In this document: positions 7,201-47,016 of the stretch, in pieces | How the letters are laid out: each line of letters starts with the position of its first letter | Numbering within the stretch: the stretch's first letter is position 1 | Origin: Membranipora membranacea | Lineage: Eukaryota; Bryozoa; Gymnolaemata; Cheilostomatida; Membraniporidae | Direction of reading: 5' to 3' | NCBI GenBank assembly: GCA_914767715.1 | Contig: OU612072.1 | Span: 18,104,001 to 18,168,000, forward strand | DNA length: 64,000 bases | Made by a program: the position numbers and the translations under genes | Notes under the pieces: model-generated | Seen by the model: only the letters and a program-made list of their open reading frames with translations | What the model was told of the DNA's origin: nothing | Databases searched by the model: none

Positions 7201-8738
7201 ATACTAGCTCTTTCGTTTTCTTGGCATTGAGGAGAAGGTCGTTGGAGAAGCACGAGTTTTCCAAATGGGCAGCTTCTTCTTGTAACTTTGTTTGTGTTGT
7301 TTCAGAAAGATATTCTAGTAGAATTGGTCGTCAGTGAATTTTATAACAGTTGTTGATTGATGGACTAAAGCCATCTGTGCTTCATACAGAGAGAACATGA
7401 ACGGACTCAGGACACAGCCCTGTGGACTTCCTGTTGACGTGCTGCTGATTTTGGATGTGTTGGTTGATGTTATTACCTTCTGTTTCGGTTGATCAGAAAA
7501 CTATAAACCCAATTAACTATGTTTGGATGGAAGTCATAGTCACTGAGTTTATCTGTGAGTAATTTTGGATTGATGGTATTGAAGGTACTTGTATAATCGA
7601 TGAATAGAGCTCTGACATGGTTCTGGGCATTCTATCCAGATGTTCACTGATCTTGTCAATCAAAGTGATGAGAGCGTCTTCAGTTGACCTGTTTGGTTTG
7701 TACGCAAACTGTGATGAGTCATTCAGCTTTGGTGACATTCTTGTTTTTCCAGGCATTTACCGACCATCGATGTTAGAGCTATTGGTCTAAAATCCTTAGG
7801 TTCATTTGCACCAGCACATTTAGGTATGGGTTTGATACTTGCCATTTTCCACACTGTAGGTATGCATCCCTGTTTGATCGACATGTTGAACAGGTCAGTG
7901 AGTGGTTGTGCAATCGTTGGCGTTGATTATTTGAGTAGACGGGCTGTGATATTATCTGCCCTTGGGCTCTTATTCATTTGGCGCCGCACAGAGTTGAATA
8001 AACTTCGTCAAAACTAAAAAACTCATCGCAATATGGCAAAAGAGATGGTAAAACAGTCATGACAGACTCACGCCATATTAAAGTTCCCTGCAATCAAGAA
8101 TGCTGGCGGTGATGAGATAATATATGAATTAAGTCTGCTATCGCTTAGAGTTATATGCTGAACTGCATGAAAGGAATGTTGCCTTTTTGTAATGATCGAA
8201 ATACATTCATTGACACAGACAAAAAACTCATGGAAGGTAACACCATACCTTTTTTTGCATTGGAAACAGCACTTTTCTAATAGGGACGTTTTGCTTGGAT
8301 TGATTTTGACTTTCTATATTGACAGTTATTTATTTGATGATCAGTTAATCCAGTCGCATATCAAATTGCAAAGCATACCAACATATGCAAGCAACCGTGC
8401 AGTAATCACTATGACCAGCAAAAAATAAATCTATAAAAATTAGAATTCAAAGCAAATACAGTACCATCTACATACTCTACATTTACAATCCCTATGATCA
8501 TAAACTGGAAAATCCCATACTCAATCGTTTTGGGATTTCCATGAGTAATGGAAAATCATTCAACCATAATCCTGTTTTATTCAGTTTCTATTCATCAGTT
8601 GTCAGGCTTTTCATAGTGAAGCTAGTAGTTGAGGTGACTACTATTGAATCTAACCTCAGCCGGATAAAATATAATAAACAGTGAATCATAGTTAATCTGT
8701 ACCAAACACTGCCTATCAGAGAGTTCTGTTAGTATAAG
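4213..8738. other. Non-coding left part of duplication copy 1
   Basis: It holds possible LINE 3'-end sequence finishing in an AATAAA-like signal and a (TAAC)n tail at about 4725-4751, a decayed hairpin with TTGTCATGCGGCC at about 5430-5505, and the reverse-transcriptase fragment at 6868-8015. The open frame on the minus strand at 6027-6473 is conserved in copy 2 only because the DNA is duplicated. It crosses a poly-G run and shows no domain, so it is not called as a gene. Confidence 0.5.
6868..8015 (-). mobile_element. Decayed non-LTR retrotransposon RT fragment (CR1/L2-like), copy 1
   Basis: This is the 3' part of a LINE reverse transcriptase, 5' truncated and broken. The minus strand encodes QFAYKPNRSTEDALITLIDK (a typical non-LTR RT block), then NDLLLNAKKTKELV and SFTYLGTVLS near the end of the RT domain. 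Compared with the better-preserved copy at 24010-25153, it has frameshifts (around 7630 and 7320) that destroy the region of the FADD catalytic motif. No endonuclease domain is present. The insertion predates the 17 kb duplication because both copies carry it at the same place. The CR1/L2 assignment rests on recalled motif similarity only. Confidence 0.8.
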
Positions 8739-11699
8739 ATGGCTTCAGCTGACTTCTCGACTACTACAGAGTGTGAGGGTCTTCTGACTGAGTGGATACA
8801 GGCTTACTTCACTGAGCTGAAGGAGTTGGATGATGAGTTTGTTAATAATCTTGACTTGGGGATATACTTTGATAGAAGAGAGGGTGTTCCAGAGAGGATA
8901 TCTAATCAGCATGGCGACCTGAAGTCTCTATTAGACAATGTGGATGTGACAGAAGGCTGGAGGATTCTGATGAGCATGACCAGTCAGATTAAGAATATAT
9001 TTCGTAGACGGAAGAGTGATGTGCTGTGTGAAGCTATCAACAGAGGACATAAGAACATTGCAGAGACTATAATAGAATATCTTACACCAGATCAGCTTCT
9101 TCAGTACTTACAACTGGAGGATGAGAGAGGAAATAAGTATCTGTATTCATCTTACCTATACCGTCAATCATCGCTGCTCGCTAAGCTTCTCTACAGACTA
9201 CCTGAAGTATCACAGAGATATGAAGTATTAAATATTAGAGACAGGTCAGGTAATACTGTACTACATAGTTCTGCTACTACTGAACTACTACAGTCATTAG
9301 AATCAGAAGATTTGTGTTATAAGCTTCTCACCACACAGAATAACGAAGGACAAACACCACTGTATGTATTGTGGCCATCTCATATAAAGGCAGCATTAGA
9401 CTCAGTGACTGCTGATCAGCGTCTGACTCTGATAGACATGAGAGATAATAAGGGACAGACTGCTGCTGAGTACCGGGCCAGAGAGATCAGTGAGGATCAG
9501 GATCAGGGTCTCAGATCCATTTTCTTTAGGAAGGAATGCTTAGCAGTTATAGAGTACAGTAGATGTGAGGCTAGAATAGAGATAGTCATATCTACACAGC
9601 ATGAGTCCGGTAAGTACATCATTGTTTATGCTTTGTACTGTACACAGCAATCATAATTTCTTTTGTTTGTTTACAATTATATTGGATGGACTTTAACATA
9701 TAGTAGATTATGGAATGTTGGTTTGATTCCTAAGCCTCTCTTCAAACAAGGATATCAAGCCAGCGACGCCAAACTTGTACAATAGGCCTATATACAGTTT
9801 TTTAGTTCACTGGTTCTTTTCTGATTAAAGTCTTAACATATGGTATGGTTATTGATGGAAATTGTCATGTGTACACAGCACATATTGTGGTCTATAATTG
9901 ATCAGTACACAAAATTAATTCTACCAGTCATTTAGCACAAACACAATTATTGAGTTTCACTGCCATATTCAATGAAAACTGACTGAACCAAATATTAGAA
10001 ATGGCCTAATAAAGCAAACATGGAAGCAATATACACTTTGCTTTATTATACTAATGCTTAAAAATACTTTGGTGGTCGATTGAGTATTGTCTGTTGTTAG
10101 CCTTTTGCAGTTCGATCATGAGTTTCTCGTATGAAAGACATCAGTAAATACAGTCATGAGAAAGTGATACCTCATTACTTCATCTTCCGCTCTTTATGGA
10201 GAAAGTTGTGGTTTTCATTTTTTTTGTAGATTTGTTGATCGTTTCGTTATTAAATATTAAAAATGAGATACTATAATAGAGCTCTTAATTCAATACTCTC
10301 TGTTATCTATTTTCAGTAAGAGATGATATGCTGAGAAGGATCATACAGGAAGAGTCTCTGACACAAGATGAGATACAGAAGTTATCTCCACTCACCTCAC
10401 AGTATATCATACCTCGTCAGCGGAGGCAGGAGCGGCTAGATGAGCGGCTAGATGAGCCAGATTTTAGATTCATTCTCGGTGAACATCTAGCAACAATCAA
10501 CTCACAGCGCGAGAAGCAGACATCTAGGTACAGTCTTATCTTCTACAACACAGAACAGAGAGAGAATGGAGCTGAAGCCGAAGCTAGTAATCTAGAAAAA
10601 GCCCTCTCTCACACAGGATGTGATGTCATCAAAGCAAAGTGGAGTCACACTGACGAGCTGAGACAGATGATCAGTGATAGGCTGAGTGATATAGGAGGAC
10701 GATGTAACTTCCTGTTTGTCTGTATCATGTCACATGGAGAACTGGGTCAGCTGAGAGGAAGTGATGACTCACTAGTATCTATCAGTACTATCATCAGAGA
10801 CTTTGAACAGAATCTACCAGCACATGTTCCACTAGTCAGTATATTTAGATGTACCATTGCCTATGTTATAATCAATTACACTTCTGGAATCCTATTGACC
10901 TGGTGTAAGGTATTGTTTTTGGCAAACAAGTATGTGCATTTATCCATGAAAAAACTTCAAACTGACAGAATGTTGTCTACAATAACACAATTATTGAATG
11001 GAGTGATTACTGCTCTGATTTCTGATATTGTTATCTCTCTGTATGTTACAGGTACTAATGATCCAGGCGTGTCAGAACTCAGAAGTTGGAGCTCTATCAG
11101 CGACCACAGCAGATATGCCTGCAGTTCACACTTCATCTAATTCTACTGATGACAAACATGTGGTCCTTACTAGAGATAACACTGTACTACTTCTCGCCTC
11201 TAAACCAGGTGTGATATCAAAAATATTGTAATCATATTGGAGTTATCTACATCGGTTCATTGCCTGGGAATTCCCTGTTGTAAACATCCTTTTTTAGTTG
11301 ATAAACCAAATGTGTAGAAGTTGCCTCTGAACCAGGTGTGATACTATGTTTATATTATACTTATATCGGGGATATCTTCATCTGTTGGCGGAAAATGGCT
11401 ATATTATAACGCCATCTTTGGCTTAAAAAGAAACAAATTAAAACAGTGCAATAGCAGTTGACTAGCTATACCCTGCTATAAAGATTTACATATAGATCAT
11501 ACTTATAGGAGGCGTGGCCTACAGAGGAGTTTACACTGGAGAATTAGCCGATCAGATTAGACAATCTAACGGGAATATCTCCCTACACGACATGCACAGT
11601 GAGGCTGTTATTGGACTGAGAAGAAATTATGGATCAGAACAAACCCCTGTCTACAGTGATACTCTGGACAAACGGCTTCTCATGCCAGGGAAGGCTTAG
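8739..11699 (+). CDS. Caspase with ankyrin-like N-terminus, copy 1
   Basis: Predicted cysteine protease of the caspase family (cleavage after Asp, cell death or immune signalling). Four exons: 8739-9609, 10317-10834, 11052-11208 and 11509-11699, with phases 1/0/1 and GT-AG sites throughout. Exon 1 (about 290 residues) has no recognisable CARD or DED. Its second half has ankyrin-like motifs (RSGNTVLH, NEGQTPLYVLWP, NKGQTAAEY). Exon 2 gives the p20 core: YSLIFYNT, GAEAEASNLEKAL, and the catalytic histidine in CIMSHGELG. Exon 3 gives the catalytic cysteine in MIQACQN, where most caspases have QACRG. Exon 4 gives the p10-like part; GVAYRGVYTGELADQI matches the YSWRN loop, whose Arg helps bind Asp. 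The gene is convergent with truncated WDHD1. It differs from its duplicate at 25886 mainly in exons 1 and 4. Confidence 0.88.
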
Positions 11700-12641
11700 A
11701 AGTTTTGTTATCTTTACTATTCAAGGCATTATGACCTAAGTTCTCTCGGTTAGTTTGATTTATGCTTTGTATTATGGGCAAAAGTCTATAAAGCTGTTAG
11801 GCCCTTGGGCGATTTTGTTCAACTTATGGCTATGCAGGCTTTCCCTGTCCTATATTTGAAGGCTACTTCTTTAGCTTGACATAATCTAGATCAGTGGCGA
11901 GTAAATTACATTTGACGAAGATATTCAAGACTGCCTGACATGTCTTTGATTAACACAATAATATGATATGCTTATCACATATTCCGATGGTCTAACCATG
12001 TTTGTCCTCCCATAGTATTAGATCTCCTTTAAATTAAAATCAATGGTACAGTCTATTTGGAGAAGCTTGTCGTGACTGTTGAAAATGATGTTTAGGTGAT
12101 TTTCTCCAAACAGAGCACGTCTAACTGTTCCTTGGCAACAAAAATGTGTCCATTCTGTTACTGAGTCACATTTTTATTATGATTATACTATTTACTCACA
12201 TATGTAAGCGTATATCAGCATGAATTGATTCCAATTCTGATCGAGAACTAAGAAACATTTTCGATGTTCACAGTCATATAAAATAAATTTCTACCACTAA
12301 TGATGGCAATCACAAACTGGGGAGTAAGCGGGATAGGAATCCTTTGATAAATATATTGATCAACGTTTTTGTAAAAACCCGATTGAGCCTGATTTGGCCC
12401 CTTCTTGTCAGCATACTTCCGAGGCGTATCCAAGTCATCTAAGGTGGAAGACTACTCACATACTATGCCATTCTATGTCTATTCAGATAATCGAGAATTT
12501 TCTAAATGTCATTTTATCTATTTTGTAATATGAAGACGAACAAGTTGGAAAATACATGAATAGCATGAATATGATTTTATATGAAATAATTTACTGAAAT
12601 AAAAGCTGTATATAATATGTTTGGTTTTGGGTGAGGGACAA
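11700..12641. other. Intergenic gap between convergent caspase and truncated WDHD1
   Basis: It holds the presumed 3' UTRs of two convergent genes. The equivalent interval in copy 2 (28837-29446) is shorter and barely alignable, except near the WDHD1 end, where tttatatgaaataattta resembles ttttatgaaataattact. I see no gene here; the minus-strand frame at 12248-12433 has no domain. Confidence 0.5.
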
Positions 12642-15600
12642 TTAATTGGCAGCAAAGGCAGCCAGTTTAGATTTGGTATTCTCACTTGTTGTGGTCAGTG
12701 TTTGTTTTTTATGTGAAGGTGTGTCAGATAGTGGACTAGCTTCTGACGAGTCTATTTTTCTCTTTTTCTCAGAGGTTGGATTATTTTTGATGTTTTCTAA
12801 GTTTAGATTTTCACGATCCGCTTGATCACAATATGCCTGTAACAAAAAATAACTTGTAGTCATATACTATCTCTTGTTTGTTGTCTCCATATGATTCTGT
12901 TATTGGGTACTCAAACACTCATCCCCCGATAAAACCAGCTCAGATAGGTTCCCAAGCTAACACAAAAGCGTCATTTCGATATCATTTTGTAGCTCCATCT
13001 CATCCCTGTTAGATTAACTCCACATACTGTGTCTTGAGCAGCATCAATACTCATGCTACCAGCATACCTAGCATGGATAACCGAACTGTCAACATTCTGA
13101 ATCTTGATTCAACTTTTTACCATCCATAAACCAAAAAGTGAGCTCTCGAACCTTCTGTTACTATTCTACTCAATTAACAAGGTCCGTGTTTCATGTGAAA
13201 GGATGACTTGCTATCTTCCATTTCGGAATAAGCTTGATAAACGTTCAAGATGATGATGTTAGTCATGGAACACAAGAACACTTACCTTTTTGACATCCTT
13301 ACTGAGTGACTTGAATTCAGAGAAAGCATCAGCCCGAGATTGTCCGGCGCATTCCTCCTTGTGAAACAGCTCAAAGGCCGTCCTGTCAACAAGAGAGTGC
13401 TTAGTATCAGAAGTAAGGTAGCTTGGTCAATAATTTGTATGATAATTAACTTTTGGTACCCACTATGACTTTGATGATTTTAATTCAGATAACAATATAA
13501 TTTTCACAGTACTTGCATCCCATTTACCAACAGTCAGACAATATGCTATGAAATGCTGAATAAACTATGGTGAATCCAATATGTAAATCCAAGTAGTTGC
13601 GTAAAAGTGTGTTATTCAGTCATAGAATGTCACTTAAAATAATAAGGTTACTAGGTCCACCATCTTCAAAATTTCACATTATTACCATCAAGAGACGTTT
13701 AAAATATTTAACTGGCTTCGATCACTATTGATTTCTTTTCCCCGGCAGTCTTGAAACTCGCAGGGATTAACATAAGATATACAATTACTGTACTCACACT
13801 TTAGGTTTATCAGAGTTGGTCTCTCCAGTCGATGAGTTCTCATCAGTGATTGGTTGTTTGTCAGAGGAGATCTGTTCTGTGGCTGTTATCTTTTTATTAG
13901 ATGTATCTGTTTTCTGCTGCTGCTGTGTTCTTTCTTTACTAAACAGCTTAGTCTGCTTCGACTGAAATTGAATACAATATAATTAAACTAAGCAACACGC
14001 AACATATGCAAAGGAAGGTCGAAGGTCATTATAATGGACAATGTTCCTAAGTGACTGAGAGGTAATGCAATTAGGCTGTATATGACTTCAAGCCTACGAC
14101 TAATAGGTCTCAACTCCTGATTAAACAATCCAGCTCTCATCCCCACAGGACAGGTTCAGGATGTTCATTATTTATGTGGTTACCGGTTTACCTTTGCAGG
14201 CTGCAATGGCAGGTTTGCCAACTTCTTTTGTTCCTGTTTCTGTGACGTTGCGTCATCGATCATTTTATGTAATGATTCAATTGATGTTGGCTTGGCTGTT
14301 GTAAGCGATTTCCTCTGAAAAAAAATTACCGGAAACATTCAGATAATCTGTTTTCTGGGGAAAATAGCAGTAACAGATGTGACACCGATGTACTTGAGAT
14401 CATATGGGCTTGAGGAAATCCCACAAAGATACAAGTAAAGACAGACCTAAATTCAATTAGCTGGGTACCTGATGACAAATTGTGAACATAATGAGGATCT
14501 ACCTTAAATGGATTTTGTCGACTTGATTGACTTTCCTGAGATATCTCATCAACAGACGGCTGTGACAAGGCATTAGCAAAAGATGTCCTCACTGCAAAAG
14601 AAAGATCAAAGTAAATCCCAAAGTGCTGATTGACTCCTAAACGGTAACTTGTGAAAGGAGTAAAAAAATTAAATATCATAGCACTGGCAACATAAGAGAG
14701 TGTCTGACTCGAGGCTATCTGATGCCAAAAGACAGATAATTGGCTGCCTTTGATGAGTATAAGCACAGAAACACATTAAATAATAACCCAATACACTCAC
14801 AAGTCTGAGTCTCAGACACACTGGTGTTCCCTGCAGTAGGTGAATGAGGCTGGGACTTCTGACTTAGTATAGCAGCAGCTTTCTCTTTACTGGGTGTTGT
14901 AGAGAAGCGAGCAGCTGTAAATCTGGATAAATCATCCTCCTCTTGTTGATGAGTGTCTACATCAAGTTGATTTGTACTCTGTCTGTAGGTAGAATGAAGG
15001 AGAATATAAGATTTAGAAACTAAAAATACTCATAGACTCATAATGACCTATTGAATGCTATGTATATACAACACTAAGCAGCGAAAAAAACTCATCTTTT
15101 CTCCAGCGGCCCATAAATCCCAATTCTCCACTTCCGACACCATGTTAGTGCCAGGCACTAAGCAAAGGTGTAGATGTGCCAAACAATCTCTCTTCTGTGG
15201 ATGTGAGAGGGCACTAATCCCAATGTCAATTTCAGTGACCCTCAAAAAAGCTTAGCCCTAAACTCTGAAATGTACTCAAAAGTCAACTTGACTGCAATCA
15301 ACAGTAAACTACAATCCCAGGATAGCCAAAATGACCACAGGTAAATTTGCCCGGTGTCTTGCTTCAGTGAGACTCTACACTGAGAATTTTTATGCTGTGC
15401 TCTCGTATTCTTGCAACAAGGGTAATGGAAACCAGGGTTTTCCTATGTAAGAGGTCTACAATAAGTGTTTGTCGTGACGTGATATTCTTAGGATCGCCGA
15501 AACAGTTTTAGGAACCAGAGTTTTTCCAATTAATATTCGAAGGTCAATGACACCTACCTGCTGACATCATTGAATGAGTTGATAGGCTGAGCGATCAGAC

Positions 15601-18600
15601 CAAACACACTCTCCTGCTCCTCCCCTTCCTCTACTGTATTATATATCTTCTGTTGAGCGAGCTGTAGAAGTTTCTGAGCTAACTCTACATTATGTGTTCT
15701 GTTAGCATACTGAGCTGCTATTCTCAGATAACTCTCAGTCATTAGCTGAGATATCTGATACGCTCTGTCTATTCTCTCCTCTCTACACGCCGTCTGTGTA
15801 CAGAAGAAAAGCTTAGTTACTGATGGGGTATAAGATGTTGTCAAACTGTGACTGGGATGGTGTTAGGGCTTATCGCTGTGCAGACTCAGCTTACTGAAAT
15901 ATTTGTGCTCCGCGTAGTCCCACCTATTGAATGGTGCTGAGGGATTCCTAATGTCAAAAATGCAAGTTAAAGTCTCAAAAGATGATATGCAGTATACTAG
16001 TCGTAACTGCGCGGATAACTTGCAAAACAAAACTAATAGCTACATGAGTCAAGTCATAGCTCTATCGGCAAGTTGCTTACATTCCAGCACTGGTAATCTT
16101 TTTTAATTTCAGAACAAGGATTAGGATATGTTCATTTGATTGACATTAGTTGGCTCAAGGTAATGTCGAAGACCGATCCGAATATCAACATTTACCATTA
16201 TAAAACGCGCGTGGATTTATAGTCTCGATACCCTGTGATACTGTGTGAGAAACCTTGATATTGCTTGTTTTTTTTGTTTGGGTATCAGTACGGGTCTACG
16301 GACTGGATCCTGATTGGGCACAAGAGCATATGAGGTCGGATGCTCTTCCTGACACCACCGTGATACGCCAGGTATCGAACACAGGACCTCTCGATTGAAA
16401 GGCCCATGCCTTACCCATTGCACCACGGCATTTACATTTACCATAATATACCATTGAAAAGCTGCCGGCCAACTGAATATGAGTACCTGAACAAAAACGT
16501 TGACTTTACGAACTCACAGAGAATAATTTGATGAGTGAGGTCTGTTCATGTTTCTCATAAGATGAGGTATCCAGACTTCTGTCGCATATCCAGTTATCGG
16601 CAGACTGTGTTAAAAGTTTGTGTCTCCAAACTGTTTCCTGCAGATCAGAAAAGTTAAGAAATTAGCACTGGCGGCAAACCTAACCATTACGGGAGCAACA
16701 GGGTGGTCTAATTGATCCTAAAACCTGTAGCTTGTCAACAATCCTGGATAAACTATAGCAATACTACAAGCAAGTCAGATTGCAACAAATTATCTTTAAA
16801 GGTATGAGATAAGAATCATATCATACCATTGAATATCAAGTTATTGATGGCACACTTTTCTGGCTGGTTAAGTTGGTACATTACCAAGTTTACCTCTTGA
16901 CCACCAGTTTCTGTTTCCAGATTCAGTAACGGTATCTTATAGTCTAAGATTCCTACAGTTGGACGTGGTGAGACTGCTGGGTACTTGGAGCCGCCCCGAC
17001 ATGTAATACATCTGACTTGAGCTGGAACCTCTGCCAAGCTGACAATAAACTGTGTGTTTTTATCTTTGGACTGTAAAATAAAAAATTCACATGATTGACA
17101 AACGTATGCTGCTGTAAAATAGTGCCTTGGTTTCCTGATTTTGGCATTTAAACAGAACCACCAATTGTAGAGTAAGTTTTTAAGTAATTTAAGATTTATT
17201 GCATATTGTTCAAAGAAGACAACACACAATTCTGCCTGTTTAGTCTATCATATTTCTTCTGTTATATATCGATATCACTTTGAACAACATAAGATACACT
17301 CTCCTAGTAACAGTGATTGTGCAAAACAATAAATTTCATAGCACATAATATTATTTGTTCATGAGATGAGTTATCAGTTGACAGTTTTTACAAGATACCG
17401 TTCGTACCACTAGATATTTTAAAATTACGATTCAATAGCTGGGCTGATAAATTCCATGATGACTCATAGTGGAACAGAGTCATGTATGATAAAAGTGATA
17501 AAGAGTGGAAATTTCCTATGAAGTGTTTCTTTTATCCGTCGCAACTCCTACTCAACTTTGATATAAGAATATCATGGTACAAACAGGCACAAATACTTTT
17601 TAGCTCTCAAATTGTGAGAGATGACTTCTTTCCATAGGCAGAGGAAGTGATTGTATTGCCCTATATGATCTCATGAAACAAGGGGCAATCGCACCACACG
17701 GTGTTGGGGGGGGGGTGAAATTCAAATTATTTACATACATGAAAGAGTCTCAGAGACAAGTTATTGTATTAGCGACGCACAATCAACAAGCGAATTATTA
17801 AGACAACATAACTTTCACAGCGGGTAGTAGTTGTAGGATCATACAGTACCTTTGTGTTAAGTACAGGAGTCCAGAGACCGTGTCCATTAATTCTATAGAA
17901 TGATAATATACCACTAGAGTCATACATGGCCGGGGTACCTTCTGATGTAAACCTATCAAAAATAACATATACGGGCCTGTCAAACATATATACATATACG
18001 AACCTGTCAAACATATACATATACATTTACATCAGCAGTGTCGGTCGCTCATGAGTAGTAAGCCAACACACTAACTTATTTACGGTATGGATATGTTGCA
18101 GTCAAAACAAAATTATGGGTGAAGGATTGAGTGAGGTAATTAGGAATCTTATGTTATCTTGAAGTCAAATTTTCCACTTCCAATTAAACAGCTGTGTAGC
18201 ATCGTCAAAGTGATTGCGTGTCAAAAGTCCCCTTAGTGAATGGCTCATGATAGCTCAGATGTAGCTATTATCAATTTGCCATGGGGTTTACGATGCTTTA
18301 GACAAGTTTCTTTGCTCCATTGCGAATGAATTTTTCAAATTCTGAGAGCAAATATTGAACATTCCTCTCTTCATTCAAGGCATAAATATTAGCTAGGGTT
18401 TAGGTTGGCTAGTTTGGAAACAAGAAAATGTTAGCTAGCATCAATTTTAGCTAGCTAAGGCAGAAATTTATATGAAGTAATGGGGTAACATAAATGTCAG
18501 CTAGCCATAACTTTCGCTATTTCAATAATGTGTATAGAGGCAACTTTTCCTTCGACGAACACTTAACACCTCTAGTGTGTATTGATATATAGGGATGACA

Positions 18601-21167
18601 TACCCGATCCATTGTAGAGTAGTATTACAGCTGAGAGGTAGTTTACCACAGTGTGTCAGAACTTCTCTTCTACCTGTCATGGTTAATATACTCATAGACA
18701 GGTGCTGGTAACCGCTCTCAGCTGTCAAATATAATATACCATGTCAACTGCATGATGTGTGAATACTCCCTCAGTACAACAAAAGAGAGTCTCAAGTCTC
18801 GTCTCCAAAAAATCGTGGATAAAGTGATCATCATTATGATACCTGTGTATACTAATGGTGATAAATTTCTTAGGATCAATTGGATCGTGTCACAGAGATT
18901 GGGAATGGTGGTGAGGAGGGGGGATGTATGTTGGTGTATTGGGTCACATCCTGGTCAATGCTATCAGTAATGAGTATGTGCTGTTAGATTGTGTCTAGTA
19001 TGTGCCTTGGCACTTATTATGCCTCGAATGATCTGAGTGACATCCCTCTGAAAATTCATCTATAATGTGATCAACATCATGACACACTTTTGGATATAAA
19101 TGGTAATAAACTTCTGATTAATCAGGTCACGAGCAGGGGGATGGGGAGGGAAGGATGTGGTCATGTGTCACATCCCGGTTAATGCTATCTGTAGTGAGTA
19201 TATTCTTTCTGATGGGATAGGGGTTTTGTATACACTGAGAAACTTCCAGCAGATCTTTCCACTCACCAGGCGCTGTATGATAGACCACAAAGAGCACATT
19301 ATTATATCCACTCATAGCTACAGGTGCTCCTGGTAACATGAATGGTGCTAGCTGGAATCCTGCTGTGGAAAACCCTCTGATCATGTGACTGCTGGTTGCT
19401 CTGGCGACAAACTCTCCGCCCACACAAACACACTGCACTGTCTCGTGTTTATCTAGTGTAGCTGACCATTGAGTTTTATCATCGCCTCCCGCAAAGTTTA
19501 TACACAGTAAGGAACTACATATAATAAATAACATGTTATATAGTATTTTTTTCTTAATGGCGGAACAAGTTAAACCAAATTACAATCAAAACAATTCTAC
19601 GTGGTGTATGGCCTTGACAAACCTTGAAACTTGTAGTCTGAATATGGCTTGATAATAAAGTCATATTGCATTTTAGCCGTGTCCAATTACAAATGTCATA
19701 TCCCGGCTTTGCATAGTTTTGATGGGTACACCGGAAAAATTGATATCAAATTGATAAAAAAACTAAACCAATGTGAAGACCCGGAGCTTGCTTTACCCGA
19801 CTTTCTAAATTAATACAAATTTTATATTTCCATCATGGTAGTAATTTCAACTTCTAATCCAACATTACCACAAACTTGAAGACCAAAATTTTATAATTCT
19901 ATAATTTTATAGGAACTCAATTGACTTGGAACATGCAGATGATTTAAAAAGCAGACTTGATAGTGTTCAAGTTCCATTTGAAGTACTAACCTGCGGGCGT
20001 TACCGTTATCTTCACTAGCTAACAGAACACACTGATCTCCTAGGTCTGCCATACTCAGGTTATCTGTGTTATTTATATGTATAGTGTGATGTTTACTCGT
20101 GTCGTGGAACTCAATATCGATCGTGTTATCATCCTCTGATGAGTAACATCGGATCAGTCCAACTTCATTCCATACCTGTGGGACAATACATAGAATATTT
20201 AAAACTCGATAGACAAGGAATGAGTTTAGAGCCAGATTCGAAATCCCAATGCTTCAATACATGTATGTACTCACAAATTTTCGTCACACTGCTGCCATCC
20301 ATTGTTGAGAAATAGGCAACAATACCTGATAGGTGTATAAACAAAAAGTGACATGGATAGAGGGAACTCCCCCAGGTCACGTGACAAATTGCGTTGAAAA
20401 GCATTAGGTATTTTAGTAATCTAGTATCTGATTAGGCTCTTGATCTAGAATTATGACCTCTAAACCCTCTCATGAGCCTATAGAAAAGTATGTTTAGAGT
20501 GTCTCCATCCAGCTATAAAAGCCTCTGTTTCCAAAAATTACCATAATTCACACAATGCTCATCAAACATCATCATTGAACTCTGTCGACGTCATCGAATT
20601 CCGGATTTATCTCTACCTAATTCCAAATTTTGTTTACACACTATTTGGAAAAACTTCTAGGTAAATGAGCATGGAGATTCCAAATCTGACAGCCATTAAG
20701 CTCTCAACTCTTTCCTTATCTAACAACCTTTAAGGACTGCGCTACAAGCTGGAAATAGGCTTGATCCCTCTGATTCTCGGGCAATAGCGGATATCGTATC
20801 AAAAAGAGGGCGACTGATTTCCCCTTTGCCAAGTTAAAACAAGAATTTATCATAGAGGCAAGTTTTACCAATGGGTATTCAAGTGGCTAGCTGTAGCTAG
20901 GCGTTTGATTAGTTAAAAGAAATCCATAAAATATATTCAGATGCAACATTACCTGCAATATGTAGGTTAGCTATTCAAAAGTATATTAGCTACTAACCAA
21001 GTAACATGACTTCTGATTAGCTGGAGTAGGTTGGAATGGCGACTGTTCCTCTGTATGTGGAGCTCTACTAGTCTTACTGACAGAGAGGGTCACATCAGCT
21101 CTGGTTGTCGGATCAGCAGGCTTATCTATAACTGATGTGGTGGCCAGAGAACCGGTCATCTCAGAAC
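12642..21167 (-). pseudogene. WDHD1: 5'-truncated WDHD1 paralogue, exons 9-22 only (still open)
   Basis: Partial duplicate of WDHD1, the Ctf4/AND-1 replisome hub. Exons on the minus strand: 20998-21167, 19991-20175, 19267-19514, 18604-18721, 17850-17952, 16894-17070, 16518-16637, 15558-15793, 14801-14982, 14503-14591, 14192-14314, 13798-13961, 13286-13382 and 12642-12836. Every splice site is kept and no exon has a frameshift; length changes against the full gene are in frame (exon 9 is 6 bp shorter, exon 20 is 3 bp longer). It retains the SepB/Ctf4 middle propeller, the helical part and the HMG-like tail. It lacks exons 1-8, which encode the start codon, the WD40 propeller and the acidic linker. 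Upstream DNA is the left end of copy 2, so it has no native promoter. I call it a pseudogene by structure, but transcription from a captured promoter is possible. Confidence 0.85.
16203..16433 (-). mobile_element. tRNA-derived SINE in WDHD1 intron, copy 1
   Basis: On the minus strand it reads TGGTGCAATGGGTAAGGC (A-box region) and then TGTTCGATACC (B-box), followed by a body that ends near ctcgagactata-type sequence at about 16219. It is flanked by imperfect 15-bp repeats, acatttaccattata at 16188-16202 and acatttaccataata at 16434-16448, consistent with a target-site duplication. The same insertion is present in copy 2 (32962-33161), so it predates the duplication. A fragment of the family lies at 63012-63143. 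Confidence 0.75.
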
Positions 21168-24100
21168 CTTAATATAATTAAAGGTAAATAATTAGGGTAT
21201 CATAAAAGTTTGTTACGAGTAAGATAACGACAACTTCCGGACATAATGTGAGAAAACATATAGACAAGAAAGAACAAGTGAAATATGTATCGAGTCACTC
21301 TATGGCCTCATAGGGAATATGGTTCTCAAGAGGTGCAAACTCCCTCTTAACCATGCTGGAAGAGCCAGCGTTGTCAAAATTTAGAGGACAACTCCTAGTA
21401 AGTGACAATTTTATTTTTTTATCTTTTTTGAATCAATACATATTCAACGGCATTAATCCAAATTTGGAAATCAAAAACCACTACAGGCACTAAGGGTTCC
21501 ATTCCCATTAGGACGGTAGGGCACCCCTTAAACAGTCATCAAAGGCGAGGGGCTAAGTACACTGACATTCAATTGTCACTATGACGCAGCCTGGCGCCTG
21601 CCATCCATCTAAAGTTAGTCCTGTCAACATAAATATATTACATTAAAATACAAAGCCGTGCACTCGCAAGTACCTAAAAACATGCTCATCACTACTCATA
21701 ACTGTCCAATTGATCATCTGTACTATTCCACACCAGTCATTTAGCTCAATTTTATTTTTAATACCGCATATTATATGGTCATTCATAATATGCCTGAAAA
21801 CAGACAAACTAACTTGCATTCAACATTATGCCTGCAAATATAGGCAAGTTTATTTTCTTTGTTTAACTAACTAACTAACTAACTGAATCACCCTTTCTAC
21901 TTGAATTCCACCATATGTTCAGTATACAAACACCTCATCACTGCGGTGAGGTCTCATTTTGAATTGGGCTTATCGCCTGTGAAACATCTAAACATAAAAG
22001 ACATGCAGTGACAAGACAATTGTTTTTTTCAGGTAAGGTAAGGCATTATTATATTTAGCTGTTGCATGTTGCCTGGAAATGTTAGAACAACTTACTCAAT
22101 TGGAATTATGGAGTCATCAAAAATAGACATATAAATCAAAATCAAGTTTTGAAATCAAAATATTTGTATCATCTAAACGTCAGAAGTACAATTCAAAAGA
22201 CATGTGACAACACTCCAACTCTTATACAGATACATAAACGTAAGCTTTGATATTTCATTGGTACAGTGTTCCACAGAGGGAGATGTAGTATTAGTGGTCA
22301 CGGAACAGCCTGATGTTAGCGCTGTTATTAACTTGTGATCTCATAGTGCCACAAAAGTGACTCCTTGCCACAGCATGAGTTGACCGAGACACACGGTTTC
22401 AAGGAGTATGTCATGTGATGAAGATACATGCGGGTAGTCGTATTTGGTAGAGCTGTTATACGATCATTTCACATACTCATAATTTACAGAGTAAAATTTG
22501 TTAAATCAGTGCCAATCGCCCAATTTGAATCACATCAACAAAGACTTTACTCTATGGCCCTAGCCTAGTCATGCGGCCACTTTATTGTTTAAATAGATGA
22601 GAAGCAAAACAAAAAAAAGTGAGCATATGACAAGGCTACATCGACACACATTATCTTCTTTTCTATGATGATTAGAAACGAAAATCAGTTGCATAGTGAT
22701 GAATACACAGACTGTTCATGACATCACAAAGTATCGGCATACCGCAACATGTAAAAAGATATTATCAGCATTTTTTTACTTTTTTCAGGCAAATTATTTG
22801 CATTTTGAGGTATTAACTAACCTGAGAAATACAGCTCTGCTCTCAGAATTTGATTGATTGATTTAGCTAAGACTTATCTTCTCTCTATATCTGAGAGGAT
22901 AACTCACAAGGATTGTGCTCTCACAAAACTAATAAAAATTCACCTACAGTTGTTGTCGTTGAGATGGAGTCACTTGTTGGGTACAATTATAAAGTAGAGT
23001 GAGATGTGACCTGATAAGCTGTATGGGTTACGTTTCAGTCAACAGATTTATTTAGAAAATCACTCTATTGTTTATGATTCGTCATTGAAGACCTTTCATC
23101 GATGCACCTATTGAGTAATATCTCAAGGTCCTTTTTCTGCTCAAAATATTTACAAGGGACGGATCATACTACAACTGCATCTCCTGACTTTGCGCTTTGA
23201 GTGGGTGGGGGGGGGGGGGTGATGAAGGATTGAACCTCTTTCAGTTTCTTGTTCCATTTTAAGTTTACAGAAGATTTTTCTAACAACTCATGTTTTTTTG
23301 CAATTCTCATACAAGCAAAAACTGATCTTATAAAAGAGAAGATATCACTATATCCTAATCCGCACGATTGGGCTTTCATCATTCCCACCCCCATCCACTC
23401 GAAGCCCGAAGTCAGGTAATGCAGTAGCCCTATGGTATATGAATGTATTGTTTTATTAATATCACAAAATGAGAAAAATATAACCCAACTTTTGTTTGCA
23501 ATAACCCTCCGCCACCACAGAGGGAAGAACAGACTTGTTCTAGTCCATCCCGAATAAGCACCCCCATAATAGCCAATACTTGACAGCTTTGTTTGTATTC
23601 TGCCAGCACCCACAAAATGTATGTATGTTTTGTATTGTCTCAGGAAGAGAATTAAAAATGTTTATGTGGGTGCTCTCTAAAAATATTCTCTAAAAAAAAG
23701 CTCAGTTTTAATGTAATGTAAAAATATGTGGATATAAAACGATATATGGAATAAATTTGTATAAAAAATTACATTTCAAATCTATTTACGAAAAACTGTG
23801 TGTAAATATCTGACGGAATGGGCTCTAAAACAGTTAGAGCGTAGCTGAGTTCTTTGTTTTATTGCCTGAAACCGGCCTGAGGGAAGCGTTTTTAATTTTA
23901 GCACTGGATCAGATTGGTTGCCAGCAACCATTCTCAGGCTCGACTCTTGGTTTTCAGTTTGCGCACATATAGGTCTTGTATATTAGTAAAAGATTGACCG
24001 CCTGCTAGTTATTCTGCTGTGCTGATAAGATGTTTTAGTTTTCGATGGGAGTCTGATTTGAGATGTTTGAAGACCACCACTAGATTATAGCTGATAACAC

Positions 24101-25885
24101 TTTCTATGAATGATTTGTAACAGGTTCGTATGATTTTCTCGTTTATGCTCAGATGGTAGAGTTTGGCAAGTAGGTGAGTTCTGGTTCGAGCTTTCTTGTT
24201 GGTCTTCTCAGTATTGAGTGTAAAGTCTAGTTTTATTAGATAGAACTGTGCCGAGATAGGTGAAGGAGTCTACAACTTCGATGTTAGTATTGTCAATGAT
24301 TAGTGACGGCGCTGGCAGAGGGTTACCTCTTACATTGCTGGATACTAGCTCTTTCGTTTTCTTGGCATTGAGGAGAAGGTCGTTGGAGAAGCACGAGTTT
24401 TCCAAATGGGCAGCTTCTTCTTGTAACTTTGTTTGTGTTGTTTCAGAAAGATATTCTAGTAGAACCGTGTCGTCAGCAAATTTTATAACAGTTGTTGATT
24501 GATGGACTAAAGCCATCTGTGCTTCATACAGAGAGAACATGAACGGACTCAGGACACAGCCCTGTGGACTTCCTGTTGACGTGCTGATGATTTTGGATGT
24601 GTTGGTTGATGTTATTACCTTCTGTTTCGGTTGATCAGAAAACTATGAACCCAATTAACTATGTTTGGATGGAAGTCATAGTCACTGAGTTTATCTGTGA
24701 GTAATTTTGGATTGATGGTATTGAAGGCACTTGTATAATCGATGAATAGAGCTCTGACATGGTTCTGGGCATTCGTATCCAGATGTTCACTGATCTTGTC
24801 AATCAAAGTGATGAGAGCGTCTTCAGTTGACCTGTTTGGTTTGTACGCAAACTGTGATGAGTCATTCAGCTTTGGTGACATTCTTGTTTTTCCAGGCATT
24901 TACCGACCATCGATGTTTGAGCGGTCTAAAATCCTTAGGTTCATTTGCACCAGCACATTTAGGTATGGGTTTGATACTTGCCATTTTCCACACTGTAGGC
25001 ATGCATCCCTGTTTGATCGACATGTTGAACAGGTCAGTGAGTGGTTGTGCAATCGTTGGCGTTGATGATTTGAGTAGACGGGCTGTGATATTATCTGCCC
25101 CTGGGCTCTTATTCATTTGGCGCCGCACAGAGTTGAATAAACTTCGTCAAAACTAATGCTGGCGGTGATGAGATAATATATGAATTAAGTCTGCTATCGC
25201 TTAGAGTTATATGCTGAACTGCATGAAAGGAATGTTCCCTTTTTGTAATGATCGAAATACATCTTTATCTAAAGCGTTCTCTGCAATCTTTATAGTTGTA
25301 AATCGATATAAAAAAAGCAGTCAAAGTTATTGATCAGTCAATAAAATTGAGCCATTGACACAGACAAAAAACTCATGGAAGGTAACACCATACCTTTTTT
25401 TGCATTGGAAACAGCACTTTTCTAATAGGGACGTTTTGCTTGGATTGATTTTGACTTTCTATATTGACAGTTATTTATTTGATGATCAGTTAATCCAGTC
25501 GCATATCAAATTGCAAAGCATACCAACATATGCAAGCAACCGTGCAGTAATCACTATGACCAGCAAAAAATAAATCTATAAAAATTAGAATTCAAAGCAA
25601 ATACAGTACCATCTACATACTCTACATTTACAATCCCTATGATCATAAACTGGAAAATCCCATACTCAATCGTTTTGGGATTTCCATGAGTAATGGAAAA
25701 TCATTCAACCATAATCCTGTTTTATTCAGTTTCTATTCATCAGTTGTCAGGCTTTTCATAGTGATGCTAGCAGTTGAGGTGACTACTATTGAATCTAACC
25801 TCAGCCGGATAAAATATAATAAACAGTGAATCATAGTTAATCTGTACCATACACTACCTATAAGAGAGTTATCTGTTAGTATAAG
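21168..25885. other. Duplication junction and non-coding left part of copy 2
   Basis: It includes the end of copy 1 (21168-21379), the junction, and sequence equivalent to 4213-8738: a (TAAC)n tail at about 21866-21885, a poly-G run at about 23208-23219 and the LINE fragment. Copy 2 has about 90 bp at 25261-25352 absent from copy 1, while copy 1 has about 80 bp after 8015 absent here. The minus-strand frame at 23164-23613 is considered spurious. Confidence 0.55.
24010..25153 (-). mobile_element. Non-LTR retrotransposon RT fragment (CR1/L2-like), copy 2
   Basis: The better of the two duplicated fragments. Minus-strand motifs in order: NKSPGADNITARLLK, VWKMASIKPIPKCAG, QFAYKPNRSTEDALITLIDK, ALFIDYTSAFNTI, GSPQGCVLSPFMFSLY and the catalytic KFADDTVLL. 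These are followed by the thumb-like ESVISYNLVVVFKHLK and a stop at 24010. At least one frame break exists near 24900 and another near 24600, so it is not active. There is no endonuclease or ORF1; it was truncated at the 5' end, as is usual for LINE insertions. The fragment lies between the duplication junction and the caspase promoter region. Confidence 0.88.
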
Positions 25886-28836
25886 ATGGCTTCAGCTGAC
25901 TTCTCTACTACTACAGAGTGTGAGGGTCTTTTGACTGAGTGGATACAGGCTTACTTCACTGAGCTGAAGGAGTTGGATGATGAGTTTGGTAATAATCCTG
26001 ACTGGGGGATATACTTTGTTAGAAGAAAGGGTGTACCAGAGAGGATATCTAATCAGCATGGCGACCTGAAGTCTCTATTAGACAATGTGGATGTGACAGA
26101 AGGCTGGAGGATTCTGATGAGCGTGACCGGTCAGAGTAAGGATAAATTTGGTAGACAGTGGAGGGATGTGCTGTATGAAGCTATCGGAGAAGGATATGAG
26201 AACATTGCAGAGACTATAATAGCTTATCTGACACCAGATCAGCTTCTTCAGTACTTACAGTATGAGGATGAGGAGGGAGAGAAGTATATGTATTCATCTC
26301 TTCTATACCTGGGGCCATCGCTGCGCATAAAGCTTCTCTACAGACTACCTGAAGTATCACAGAGATATGAAGTGTTAAATATTAGAAACAAGTCAGGTGA
26401 TATTGTACTACATAGGTTAGGTGATATTGTACTACATAGTTCTGCTACTACTAAACTACTACAGTCATTAGAATCAGAAGATTTGTGTTATAAGCTTCTC
26501 ACCACACAGAATAACGAAGGACAAACACCACTGTATGTATTGTGGCCATCTCATATAAAGGCAGCATTAGACTCAGTGACTGCTGATCAGCGTCTGACTC
26601 TGATAGACATGAGAGATAATAAGGGACAGACTGCTGCTGAGTACCTGGCCAGATGGATCAGCGAGGAGCAGGATCACAGATTCATTATCCTTAAAAGGAA
26701 GGAACGCTTAGCAGTTATAGAGTACAGTAGATGTGAGGCTAGAATAGAGATGGTCATATCTACACAGCATGAGTCCGGTAAGTACATCATTGTTTATGCT
26801 TTGTACACAGCAATCATAATTTCTTTTATTTGTTTACAATTATATTGGATGGACTTTTACATATAGTAGATTATGGAATGTTGGTTTGATTCCTAAGCCT
26901 CTCTTCAAACAAGGATATCAAGCCAGCGACGCCAAACTTGTACAATAGGCCTATACACAGTTTTTTAGTTCACTGGTTCTTTTCTGATTAAAGTCTTAAC
27001 ATATGGTATGGTTATTGATGGAAATTGTCATGTGTACACAGCACATATTGTGGTCTATAATTGATCAGTACACAAAATTAATTCTACCAGTCATTTAGCA
27101 CAAACACAATTATTGAGTTTCACTGCCATATTCAATGAAAACTGACTGAACCAAATATTAGAAATGGCCTAATAAAGCAAACATGGAAGCAATATACACT
27201 TTGCTTTATTATACTAATGCTTAAAAATACTTTGGTGGTCGATTGAGTATTGTCTGTTGTTAGCCTTTTGCAGTTCGATCATGAGTTTCTCGTATGAAAG
27301 ACATCAGTAAATACAGTCATGAGAAAGTGATACCTCATTACTTCATCTTCCGCTCTTTATGGAGAAAGTTGTGGTTTTCATTTTTTTTGTAGATTTGTTG
27401 ATCGTTTCGTTATTAAATATTAAAAATGAGATACTATAATAGAGCTCTTAATTCAATACTCTCTGTTATCTATTTTCAGTAAGAGATGATATGCTGAGAA
27501 GGATCATACAGGAAGAGTCTCTGACACAAGATGAGATACAGAAGTTATCTCCACTCACCTCACAGTATATCATACCTCGTCAGCGGAGGCAGGAGCGGCT
27601 AGATGAGCCAGCTTATAGATTCATTCTCAGTGAACATCTAGCAGCAATCAACTCACAGCGCGAGAAGCAGACATCTAGGTACAGTCTTATCTTCTACAAC
27701 ACAGAACAGAGAGAGAATGGAGCTGAAGCCGAAGCTAGTAATCTAGAAAAAGCCCTCTCTCACACAGGATGTGATGTCATCAAAGCAAAGTGGAGTCACA
27801 CTGACGAGCTGAGACAGATGATCAGTGATAGGCTGAGTGATATAGGAGGACGATGTAACTTCCTGTTTGTCTGTATCATGTCACATGGAGAACTGGGTCA
27901 GCTGAGAGGAAGTGATGACTCACTAGTATCTATCAGTACTATCATCAGAGACTTTGAACAGAATCTACCAGCACATGTTCCACTAGTCAGTAAATTTAGA
28001 TGTACCATTGCCTATGTTATAATCAATTACACTTCTGGAATCCTATTGACCTGATGTAAGGTATTGTTTTTGGCAAACAAGTATGTGCATTTATCCATGA
28101 AAAAACTTCAAACTGACAGAATGTTGTCTACAATAACACAATTATTGAATGGAGTGATTACTGCTCTGATTTCTGATATTGTTATCTCTCTGTATGTTAC
28201 AGGTACTTATGATCCAGGCGTGTCAGAACTCAGAAGTTGGGGCTCTATCAGCGACCACAGCAGATATGCCTGCAGTTCACACTTCATCTAATTCTACTGA
28301 TGACAAACATGTGGTCCTTACTAGAGATAACACTGTACTACTTCTCGCCTCTAAACCAGGTGTGATATCAAAAATATTGTAATCATATTGGAGTTATCTA
28401 CATCGGTTCATTGCCTGGGAATTCCCTGTTGTAAACATCCTTTTTTAGGTGATAAACCAAATGTGTAGAAGTTGCCTCTGAACCAGGTGTGATGCTATGT
28501 TTATATTATACTTATATTGGGGATATCTTCATCTGTTGGCGGAAAATGCCTAAATTATAACGCCATCTTTGGCTTAAAAAGAAACAAATTAAAACAGTGC
28601 AATAGCAGTTGACTTGCTACCCTGCTATAAAGATTTACATATAGATCATACTTTTAGGGGGCGTGGCCTACAGAGGAGCTTACACTGGAGAATTAGCCGA
28701 TCAGATTAGACAAGCTAACGGGTATATCTCCCTACACGACATGCACAGTGAGGCTGTGAGTCAACATGGGTCAGAGCAGACTCCTGTATATATAGACACA
28801 CTCAAAAAAAAGCTGTTTATGCCTGGAAAAGCTTGA
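25886..28836 (+). CDS. Caspase with ankyrin-like N-terminus, copy 2
   Basis: Paralogue of the gene at 8739. Exons: 25886-26777, 27480-27985, 28203-28359 and 28658-28836, with the same phases (1/0/1). The catalytic histidine (IMSHGELG) and cysteine (MIQACQN) are kept, with the same non-canonical pentapeptide. The p10-like exon reads GVAYRGAYTGELADQI and ends FMPGKA. Exon 1 differs from copy 1 at about 45 residues, concentrated at residues ~35-48, ~80-118, ~125-155 and ~255-280. It also has an extra 24-bp tandem repeat that adds eight residues (a second GDIVLH). Exon 2 lacks a four-residue RLDE repeat present in copy 1. Intron 1 (about 700 bp) is almost identical between copies. Unlike copy 1, intron 2 carries an early in-frame stop. 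The gene is convergent with the complete WDHD1. Confidence 0.88.
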
Positions 28837-29446
28837 TCATTCAAGCGCATCACAATAGATCACCTCATTGATTAGCGGTGATACGAGAATAAGTAGAGAC
28901 ACACTGTTCATCTATGGGTATTTTTGGTAACACCTGGACAAACGATTTGCCTTGCTTTTGTTGGGGGGTTATCTAGTTATATTGCTGTATCAGTAACAAG
29001 TCGCACTAATCATCCAAAACAACTTAACTTACATTTTATGGTACATTTGATCATGCTATTGAGTTATAACAATGTCAGTTCCTGCTTGGGCGAATTAATC
29101 ATTCATATCATTTGTACAGGGCATTTGTTTTCAACATTGGGCTTCTACTTGTTTCATAATTTTTATATTTCAAGACAAGTTGGAGAATCTAAAGTGAAAA
29201 CTCAATAGAAGTGTAGAAATCATCTCTGAGTTTAATAACGTTATATAGATAACCCACACATATTCATGAGTATAAGCATATCGCTAGATTTCTATCATTT
29301 GTCAAGAGAATTTTCGATTGTCTTGGTAAAAAAAATCCAACAAATTTATAAGAAAATACCTACCCCAAAAATAATATATTTTTATGAAATAATTACTCGG
29401 AAATAAAATCCATAATATTACTTGATGCCGTCTTCGTTGATACCAG
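28837..29446. other. Intergenic gap between convergent caspase copy 2 and WDHD1
   Basis: It holds the presumed 3' UTRs of both genes. It is not clearly homologous to the same gap in copy 1, except for about 50 bp next to the WDHD1 stop. The plus-strand frame at 28924-29208 shows no domain and is not called. Confidence 0.5.
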
Positions 29447-45592: not shown

Positions 45593-47016
45593 AATGATGT
45601 GCTGATGAACACTTTATTGATTGTTGAGAAGGAATACAAGTTGAAAGAAAGCCTACAATTTTTTCTCTGAGCAATCTCAGAATCCGGTTTATCAAGTTTT
45701 CTCCTTCCCGCCACAAAATCCCGGAAATTGCTTTGTTGTGTTGACAACAACCCAATCAGAATCACTGTAAGAATAACCTTCGAATACCTGGAAAAACTTT
45801 TGCATGAGAACATAATACACAAAAGTCTCTCACCAGCTGCACCACATCCAAACAGCAGGGAGGGTGGGAGGGAGGGTGGTATATCCCATCCTCCCTGCAA
45901 GCAGCAAGTAAGTGACACTTGAATTGTGTTCATGAGTAATATTTTGCCCCTCAGTTGTGCACAGCAAAGTACTGAAGTGAACAGTTCTTTGTGCACACCA
46001 ACTGTCCGTGTCGTGAGATGTGGCTTAGCCTGTCCGGAGTCCTGACAAGCTTTGTTAGGGGTCCCCTCCACCGTACAAAGCTTGTCAAGACAGGCTAGAT
46101 GTGGCTTTGGTTGTCAAAAGCTATATAGATTATGGTCAAAATTCAGATAATCTGACAAAATTTAGCTAAGCTCACTGTTTGACTTTTGTTCAGTTTATCT
46201 CCGATATTTAGGAACTGCAAGCCCTTGCATATGCTCCGTGCGTTTTTGAGGAAGCCTTGTCTGTCCTGTTGATTCAAAAGGTGAAACGAGATGTCAGTAA
46301 GCCATCAGCCATGGACAGAAGAACTTATTCGCAAAAGTTCATTACCCAAATCACACAAAAAAATGGTCGGTAACTTGGTTTTACGAGGTACATGCTATAT
46401 TTTGGATTGTTAGACCCGAAAAATCACAGTGAAACAGAGGAATTATACACCTTTGACAGCCATATATCAGAGTTATTGTACGAAATACTCATGTGTGATC
46501 GGTTATCACTGGAAGTTCAACATACTACGCGTATATATTGAGCTTTGGAAATACAGAATCAAAATCATTATATAGAGCAGAAAGCAGACAACTATGAACA
46601 CTAAAACAGTTTGATATTCATAATTGCCAAAGATTTTGGCATCGAGATCAACCATGACATATATTAAATTTTTATGAGACACACATGATCTAATCCAAGG
46701 AAATTTGGATGTGTACACATTTATAAAAAGGCTATGGGTTAGGCAATATCACATATTGTAGCATTTTCCTAATTCGATTTTCAAAGAGAAAATTTATCTA
46801 ACTCAGATGAAAATAATAGAACCTCATTTGACATGGCCTAATTGGGTGCTGAGAATAAATAGCCTAGGTTCTGTATATTAAGAGATGTTCTTGCGCGGGT
46901 CGGGTTGAGTAGGAGTAGGACCTTGTAGATTTGCCACAAAATAAACAGCCTAGGTTCTGTAAATTGAGGGATGTTCTTGTGCGGGTCAGGTTGAGTAGGT
47001 TCTCGTAGATTTGGCA
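45593..47016. other. Region upstream of WDHD1 and downstream of TMED copy A
   Basis: It should contain the WDHD1 promoter and 5' UTR and the 3' UTR of the p24 gene. A hairpin-forming sequence lies at 46035-46096 (tagcctgtc...tgacaagctttgt paired with acaaagcttgtcaagacagg). An ~85-bp imperfect tandem repeat spans about 46855-47017 (agcctaggttctgta...). No coding exon is supported; short frames at 45589-46071 and 46506-46718 are dismissed. Confidence 0.5.

Follow-up and report, generated by a model that had tools for sequence, protein, structure and literature searches.

Two neighboring caspase genes of the bryozoan Membranipora membranacea, here called A and B, differ strongly in an ankyrin-like first exon but hardly at all in the intron that follows it. 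The question raised by this locus is whether such a pattern reflects diversifying selection on a recognition surface, gene conversion, or some combination of the two. The initial annotation of the locus invoked strong diversifying selection or conversion from other family members, and considered a caspase with a variable sensor-like part to be a candidate single-protein receptor for immunity or allorecognition. The present study analyzes a window of 64,000 nt of chromosome 8 (positions 18,104,001–18,168,000), which contains both genes, together with related genes elsewhere in the assembly.

Results

Gene structure and predicted domains

A 17-kb duplication on chromosome 8, arranged head to tail, contains genes A and B, with one plus-strand caspase gene in each tandem unit (Table 1). 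The junction between units is at 21377/21378, and the outer flanks were dissimilar over the 150 bp compared. Four-exon models, built from splice signals and the open frame, give proteins of 578 aa for A and 577 aa for B, both with open frames. The joined proteins matched Peptidase_C14 (PF00656) in Pfam with 63.7 bits for A (E 2.6e-17) and 64.1 bits for B, over a cut-off of 21.4; gene A aligned to solved caspases; and the catalytic motifs MSHG (His) and QACQNS (Cys) were kept in both genes. By domain and catalytic residues A and B are caspases (MEROPS C14, PF00656) with predicted protease activity.

Exon 1 of gene A, taken alone, fell under the Pfam ankyrin cut-off (Ank_2, 18.5 bits against 27.3, E 0.003). 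Residues 99–249 had 39% identity (E 7e-14) to a frame of the same genome that carries Ank_2 at 2e-25, the predicted model of the exon matched ankyrins and DARPins from residue 91 onward with middling Z, and a profile of the family's exons matched solved ankyrin chains (among 60 of 243 matches). An ankyrin fold is thus predicted for this exon. Residues 80, 82, 84 and 86, which immediately precede the first ankyrin repeat, are variable and alternate as they would on a single face of a strand. Neither A nor B had a NACHT or NB-ARC domain in Pfam at E up to 1 or a CARD or DED over cut-off, the only CARD signal being in B (15 bits against 23.9, E 0.026). Among 5.8 billion predicted proteins, no homologue was found at E 0.001, with 8000 candidates scored.

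Other genes are touched by the duplication. A WDHD1/AND-1 gene is cut by it, with pieces at about 12640–21377 (−) and 29440–45600 (−) of the window; Mcl1_mid is present in both copies, copy A retains only the 3′ part, and the WD40 exon is found only at 40254–40619, where WDHD1 was the best model but under its cut-off. A reverse-transcriptase fragment (RVT_1) lies in the duplicated unit at 24208–24642 (−), with similar frames at 7070–7500 (−).

Table 1. Positions, within the window, of the duplicated units, the two genes and tracts of unusual similarity or divergence
Feature	Position	Strand	Detail or basis
Tandem unit A	4213..21377		Head-to-tail copy of 21378–38125; aligned pieces 86–96% identical
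Identical tract, 412 bp, just upstream of exon 1	8208..8619		Alone within permuted maximum of 438
Gene A exon 1 (variable): helical N-terminal part plus ankyrin repeats	8739..9609	+	
Gene A intron 1, nearly the same as in B	9610..10316	+	3/702 bases differ
Identical tract, 655 bp, just downstream of exon 1	9794..10460		Exceeds permuted maximum of 438
Gene A exon 2: linker and caspase large subunit	10317..10834	+	His of MSHG at 10733–10735
Gene A exon 3: catalytic Cys of QACQNS at 11070–11072	11052..11208	+	Translation
Gene A exon 4: caspase small subunit and stop	11509..11699	+	Gene model
Strongly diverged block of the duplication	11600..14200		Not homogenized, or replaced
Tandem unit B	21378..38125		Second copy of the duplication
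Gene B exon 1: ankyrin exon, 8-residue insertion repeating its neighbor	25886..26777	+	
Gene B intron 1	26778..27479	+	Gene model
Gene B exon 2: caspase large subunit	27480..27985	+	Peptidase_C14 E 2e-17
Gene B exon 3: catalytic Cys 28221–28223	28203..28359	+	Gene model
Gene B exon 4: small subunit, much changed relative to A	28658..28836	+	30/178 aligned bases differ

Divergence between A and B

The raw divergence was essentially as the initial annotation had described it. Where about 45 of 290 exon-1 residues had been said to differ, 46 of 289 aligned residues do; fewer than ten silent changes had been counted, and there are 8 purely silent codons; and intron 1, said to differ at only a few bases, differs at 3 of 702. 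The changes fall in the patches originally described plus one small extra patch, at residues 35–48 (5 changes), 80–113 (15), 126–148 (10), 168–182 (5), 246–267 (10) and 282 in A numbering. The insertion in exon 1 of B is a 24-bp tandem duplication, accompanied by a 1-residue gap relative to A. Introns 2 and 3 differ at 2 of 217 and 7 of 298 bases.

Diversifying selection, as had been proposed for these two genes, was not borne out by them. Path counting (NG86) in exon 1 gave 17.3 synonymous and 60.7 non-synonymous changes, i.e. dS 0.098, dN 0.095 and dN/dS 0.98 (Fisher test for dN>dS, p 0.57), a value within the range (no higher than 1) that the initial annotation had named as refuting its proposal. 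Silent divergence in exon 1 exceeded that of intron 1 (p 1e-9 when paths are counted, p 3e-4 with silent-only codons), with dS reaching 0.43 in alignment columns 121–150 and 0.34 in columns 241–270; in the last 38 codons of the A/B comparison dS was 2.8. The duplication as a whole is a mosaic in which identical runs, the longest of 1097 bp, alternate with blocks that differ by as much as 40–45%. Identical runs of 1097, 747 and 655 bp compare with a permuted maximum of 438 (1000 permutations, leaving out 11.6–14.2 kb), so that the identity of the introns looks like conversion rather than youth. Within the 11.6–14.2 kb block, two non-coding parts are 40–45% different and others 16–21%, with many gaps. 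Because dN/dS is 0.98, silent sites exceed the intron and the duplication is a mosaic, intron identity is best read as homogenization, and exon 1 as the place where homogenization stops, between the conversion-like tracts of 412 and 655 bp.

The second proposal, conversion from other family members, found no support in A and B: with 135 of 307 candidates scored in an exon-1 search of the assembly, A and B were the only close matches, the next best, an ankyrin frame, was 39% identical, and no close donor for the variable patches was found outside the pair. As sole cause of the differences between A and B, conversion from other members was rejected, as were an assembly artefact and relaxed constraint, and we read the A/B pattern as mostly conversion-shaped.

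The ankyrin-caspase family

A genome search with the catalytic part gave at least 140 exon matches, 6 of them in A and B and many in arrays (135 of 467 candidates scored), and another six-frame search gave at least 145 (140 of 515 scored); since six-frame searches count exons, these are not gene counts. Local profiles were inspected at 55 caspase loci. At 29 of them the caspase exon was preceded by an ankyrin exon of like orientation, representing 28 distinct genes because L046 and L069 are the same; a Roc-type exon with caspase was present at 11; at 10 the stretch inspected, which reached approximately 1.5–2.2 kb upstream, showed the caspase alone; and the caspase profile made no call at 5, including L003 with a Roc-type exon. 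On this sequence evidence, A and B are members of a large family in which a predicted ankyrin recognition exon is followed by caspase exons. One member, L084, has ankyrin and caspase in a single 509-aa open frame (Ank_4, 25.0 bits with a cut-off of 22.7; Peptidase_C14 exactly at the cut-off of 21.4), and the fusion therefore rests on more than splice inference. Pfam ankyrin matches exceeded cut-off in L069, L076, L087 and L061, and in L084 via Ank_4, with L057 and L091 below.

L053 and L071 are 92% identical in exon 1 and for about 450 bp into intron 1, with caspase exons only 65% identical; on this alignment the difference is a recombination inside intron 1 that swapped putative sensor and effector. 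Around these genes on chromosome 9, L070–L073 and L053–L056 have one ankyrin-exon type and two caspase-exon types in a single array. Some members are broken, with stops in exon 1 of L072 (1) and L073 (2) and in the caspase exon of L059. An insertion in L047 resembles the tandem duplication in B, and in-frame tandem duplication may be an additional way of changing the sensor. L066 and L067 (chromosome 8, 14.86 and 14.89 Mb) are alike through the ankyrin and caspase exons and unrelated farther downstream, representing either a very recent copy or an assembly duplicate. On chromosome 3 there is a second caspase group in arrays (L077–L083, L089 and L090), with a Roc-GTPase-type upstream exon; the one such exon tested, that of L080, matched PF08477 just over cut-off.

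Selection in the arrays

Pairwise comparison in the ankyrin-caspase arrays on chromosomes 11, 9 and 8 (C11, C9 and C8) gave exon-1 dN/dS above 1 in 33 of 39 pairs (14 of 15 in C11, 18 of 21 in C9, 1 of 3 in C8), these being counts that recombination affects. They cover 202–258 codons in C11 and C9 and 322–353 in C8, with exon 1 shortened at the 5′ end except in L069, L070, L075 and L076, and exclude L067 (like L066), L072 and L073 (stops), L064 (whose ankyrin frame is broken), L074 (where exon 1 could not be located) and L050 (which lacks its own exon 1). Close sister genes in C11 and C9 had approximately 47–58 non-synonymous changes in the ankyrin exon, with nearly identical caspase exons and introns; for L069/L047 there were 50.5 non-synonymous changes in exon 1, and the 135 caspase codons compared had neither synonymous nor non-synonymous changes. 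Because pairs within an array share ancestry, four close pairs without a common gene, chosen by similarity, were pooled. Their exon 1 had dN 0.099 and dS 0.045, a ratio of 2.21 (p 1.3e-5), which became 2.22 with a fifth pair added and was still 2.21 without L059, whose exon-2 numbers look like alignment artefacts and were not used. The pooled ratio was 3.27 for C11 pairs alone (p 9e-5) and 1.67 for C9 pairs alone (p 0.028).

Exon-1 dN exceeded intron-1 divergence in each of the four close pairs (p 2e-8 to 8e-11). Exon-1 dS was not clearly higher than intron 1 in the two C11 pairs (p 0.06 and 0.4) and was higher in the C9 pairs (p 0.048 and 0.002); the excess over intron 1 in C9 and in A/B suggests that conversion contributes in both. 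We read C11 as a product of positive selection and C9 as a product of selection together with conversion. Four-gamete tests found 508 of 903 site pairs incompatible in C11, with a near-neighbor signal of 3/1000, and 188 of 325 in five of seven members of C9, with a signal of 81/1000. Since recurrent change at selected sites also yields incompatibilities, exchange is supported in C11 and weakly so in C9.

Two comparisons bound the pattern. Control arrays of Roc-caspases had dN/dS of 0.24–0.88, below 1 in 12 of 12 pairs (one pair, L082/L083, having only 174 codons and a long gapped intron that is 17% different), indicating that the high ratio belongs to the ankyrin exon and not to caspase arrays generally; because the Roc exon encodes a different type of domain, this is a control for arrays and not for ankyrins. 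The ankyrin pair L085/L086 on chromosome 10 is conserved, with 4 synonymous and 6 non-synonymous changes in 135 codons, so diversification does not occur in every ankyrin-caspase.

Variable positions in the repeat

With repeat positions numbered by the TPLH motif, mean variability across four data sets was highest at positions 14, 5, 3, 13, 10, 16, 1 and 2 (0.42–0.71) and low at 6–9 (0.10–0.14) and 17–26 (0.07–0.28). Positions 2, 3, 5, 13 and 14 varied at 0.72, 0.68 and 0.60 in C11, C9 and C8, compared with 0.17, 0.22 and 0.23 elsewhere, and in each array none of the 20,000 permutations or 30 register shifts did as well; in C8, one of seven repeats is present only in L076 and contributed no data. 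In A and B alone the enrichment is suggestive (0.36 against 0.19, equaled in 907 of 20,000 permutations and tied by 1 of 30 shifts). Pooled dN was 0.56 at these five positions and 0.086 elsewhere in the repeats, although non-target ankyrin positions also had a ratio of 2.3. The five are among the positions randomized in DARPins, as are 26 and 33, which lie outside the tested set; position 26 varies little here (0.07). DARPin residues 46, 48, 56, 57, 78, 79, 81 and 89 (PMC3602593) fit the numbering used. The changes in the arrays are concentrated on the face by which ankyrins grip targets, ligand binding by these proteins being putative.

Discussion

Patterns detected are probably best explained by germline diversification of an ankyrin recognition region fused to a caspase effector, with conversion homogenizing the rest of each gene and a putative role as receptors. 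The core of the original proposal, a caspase with a diversifying sensor, is thereby supported by the family, through C11 and C9, better than by A and B. Several observations count against this reading, including the A/B ratio of 0.98 and the no more than suggestive enrichment of the five positions in that pair, the single C8 pair of three with a ratio above 1, the lack of variability in L085/L086, the broken members, the ratio of 2.3 at non-target positions, and conversion in C9 and A/B. Mechanistically, variable ligands, whether pathogen or non-self molecules, would be bound by the concave face of the ankyrin repeats; binding would bring caspase domains together or free them; and caspases in proximity would cleave themselves and their substrates, leading to cell death. 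Selection would favor new ankyrin faces and remove copies whose difference conversion had erased, introns and catalytic exons would be kept alike by conversion, and intron 1 could serve as the joint for swapping sensor and effector exons.

An alternative explanation could be conversion alone, such that A and B are old duplicates whose differences have been erased nearly everywhere, exon 1 being simply one of the small number of patches left over. Identical runs beyond chance, non-coding parts still up to 40–45% different, and high silent divergence in exon 1 and in the last 38 codons all agree with this, and conversion is a real part of the A/B pattern. As a complete account it is unlikely, predicting neither dN above dS in C11 nor specificity for ankyrin positions, nor would it account for other ankyrin arrays leaving the same exon unconverted when Roc-caspase arrays do not. 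The likelihoods given to the different readings need not exclude one another, because conversion also belongs to the preferred one. Somewhat less probable again is that each ankyrin face follows its own invariant host protein, such as a substrate or an adaptor, in a subfunctionalized signaling family rather than one of non-self receptors. Ankyrin domains usually bind host partners and one ankyrin pair is not variable, but a high level of change at concave positions between copies otherwise nearly identical in exons and introns would be more typical of conflict.

That the ankyrin exon is dispensable and drifting under relaxed constraint is very improbable: the A/B ratio and the stops in some members would fit, but exon 1 keeps an open frame in A, in B and in each of 16 array members counted, dN is greater than intron divergence in the four close pairs, and framework positions 6–9 and helix 2 change little as concave positions change. 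Least credible of all is that two haplotypes were placed in tandem by the assembly, for although alleles of a marine invertebrate could plausibly differ by a few percent and the assembly's curators took out 17 haplotypic duplications (PMC10290214), the assembly is based on HiFi reads at 66x with purge_dups (PMC10290214), no N was found in the window, copy A lacks the 5′ part of WDHD1/AND-1, the gene in which the junction falls, the same pattern occurs in other arrays, and the 11.6–14.2 kb block is hard to see as allelic unless replaced on one haplotype.

A diversified ankyrin sensor joined directly to a caspase has partial counterparts in known systems. Metazoan initiator caspases have an N-terminal interaction domain, CARD or DED, before the caspase, as a conserved prodomain that binds adaptors; the N-terminal domain is similarly placed here, but is a variable ankyrin. 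Roc-GTPase-caspases of the same genome have related caspase exons, several of them in arrays with similar introns, but a conserved first exon. Plant NLRs have an LRR sensor and an NB-ARC switch, unlike the ankyrin-caspases. For highly variable plant NLRs, receptor diversity has likewise been used to predict binding sites (PMC8226289). Closest in the pattern of variation are fungal NOD-like receptors with ANK, TPR or WD repeats (PMC4986451), where ankyrins are likewise positively selected at concave inner-helix and β-hairpin positions, the same face being under selection in Podospora (Dyrka et al., PMC4986451), and where gene families likewise exchange between members and are linked to non-self recognition. 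Fungal loci studied there have NACHT or NB-ARC, whereas A and B are without a detected NOD domain, and the protease effector listed in that paper is Peptidase S8, with "caspase" appearing only in a reference, as opposed to a caspase in the same chain (PMC4986451). DARPins share with these genes a constant framework and the ankyrin positions that vary on it, but are engineered binders without an effector (PMC3602593).

The finding has three implications. First is that ankyrin repeats diversifying at the positions used in artificial binders, fused directly to a caspase, would constitute a type of animal receptor that works without NOD switch or adaptors. Secondly, diversification of a repeat surface, familiar from fungal NLRs, is seen here in an animal. 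Thirdly, ankyrin-caspases are concrete candidate genes for self/non-self recognition in bryozoans, in which allo-incompatibility is mentioned in PMC8195603. Among the matches listed in a search of titles and abstract openings in open-licence literature, no description of variable ankyrin-caspase receptors was found. A bolder possibility, offered tentatively, is a natural DARPin-like germline repertoire in which each binder carries its own caspase and exons are exchanged through intron 1; one protein would then convert non-self recognition into cell death without NOD switch, adaptor or inflammasome, and could decide colony fusion or rejection or kill infected zooid cells.

Diversified ankyrins may also extend beyond the caspases. 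The exon-1 search of the assembly brought up, at 0.03–3.3 Mb of C7, an array whose open frames are very long, the largest of 2345 aa; three tested pieces of these frames are ankyrin repeats, and the array is possibly another diversified ankyrin family.
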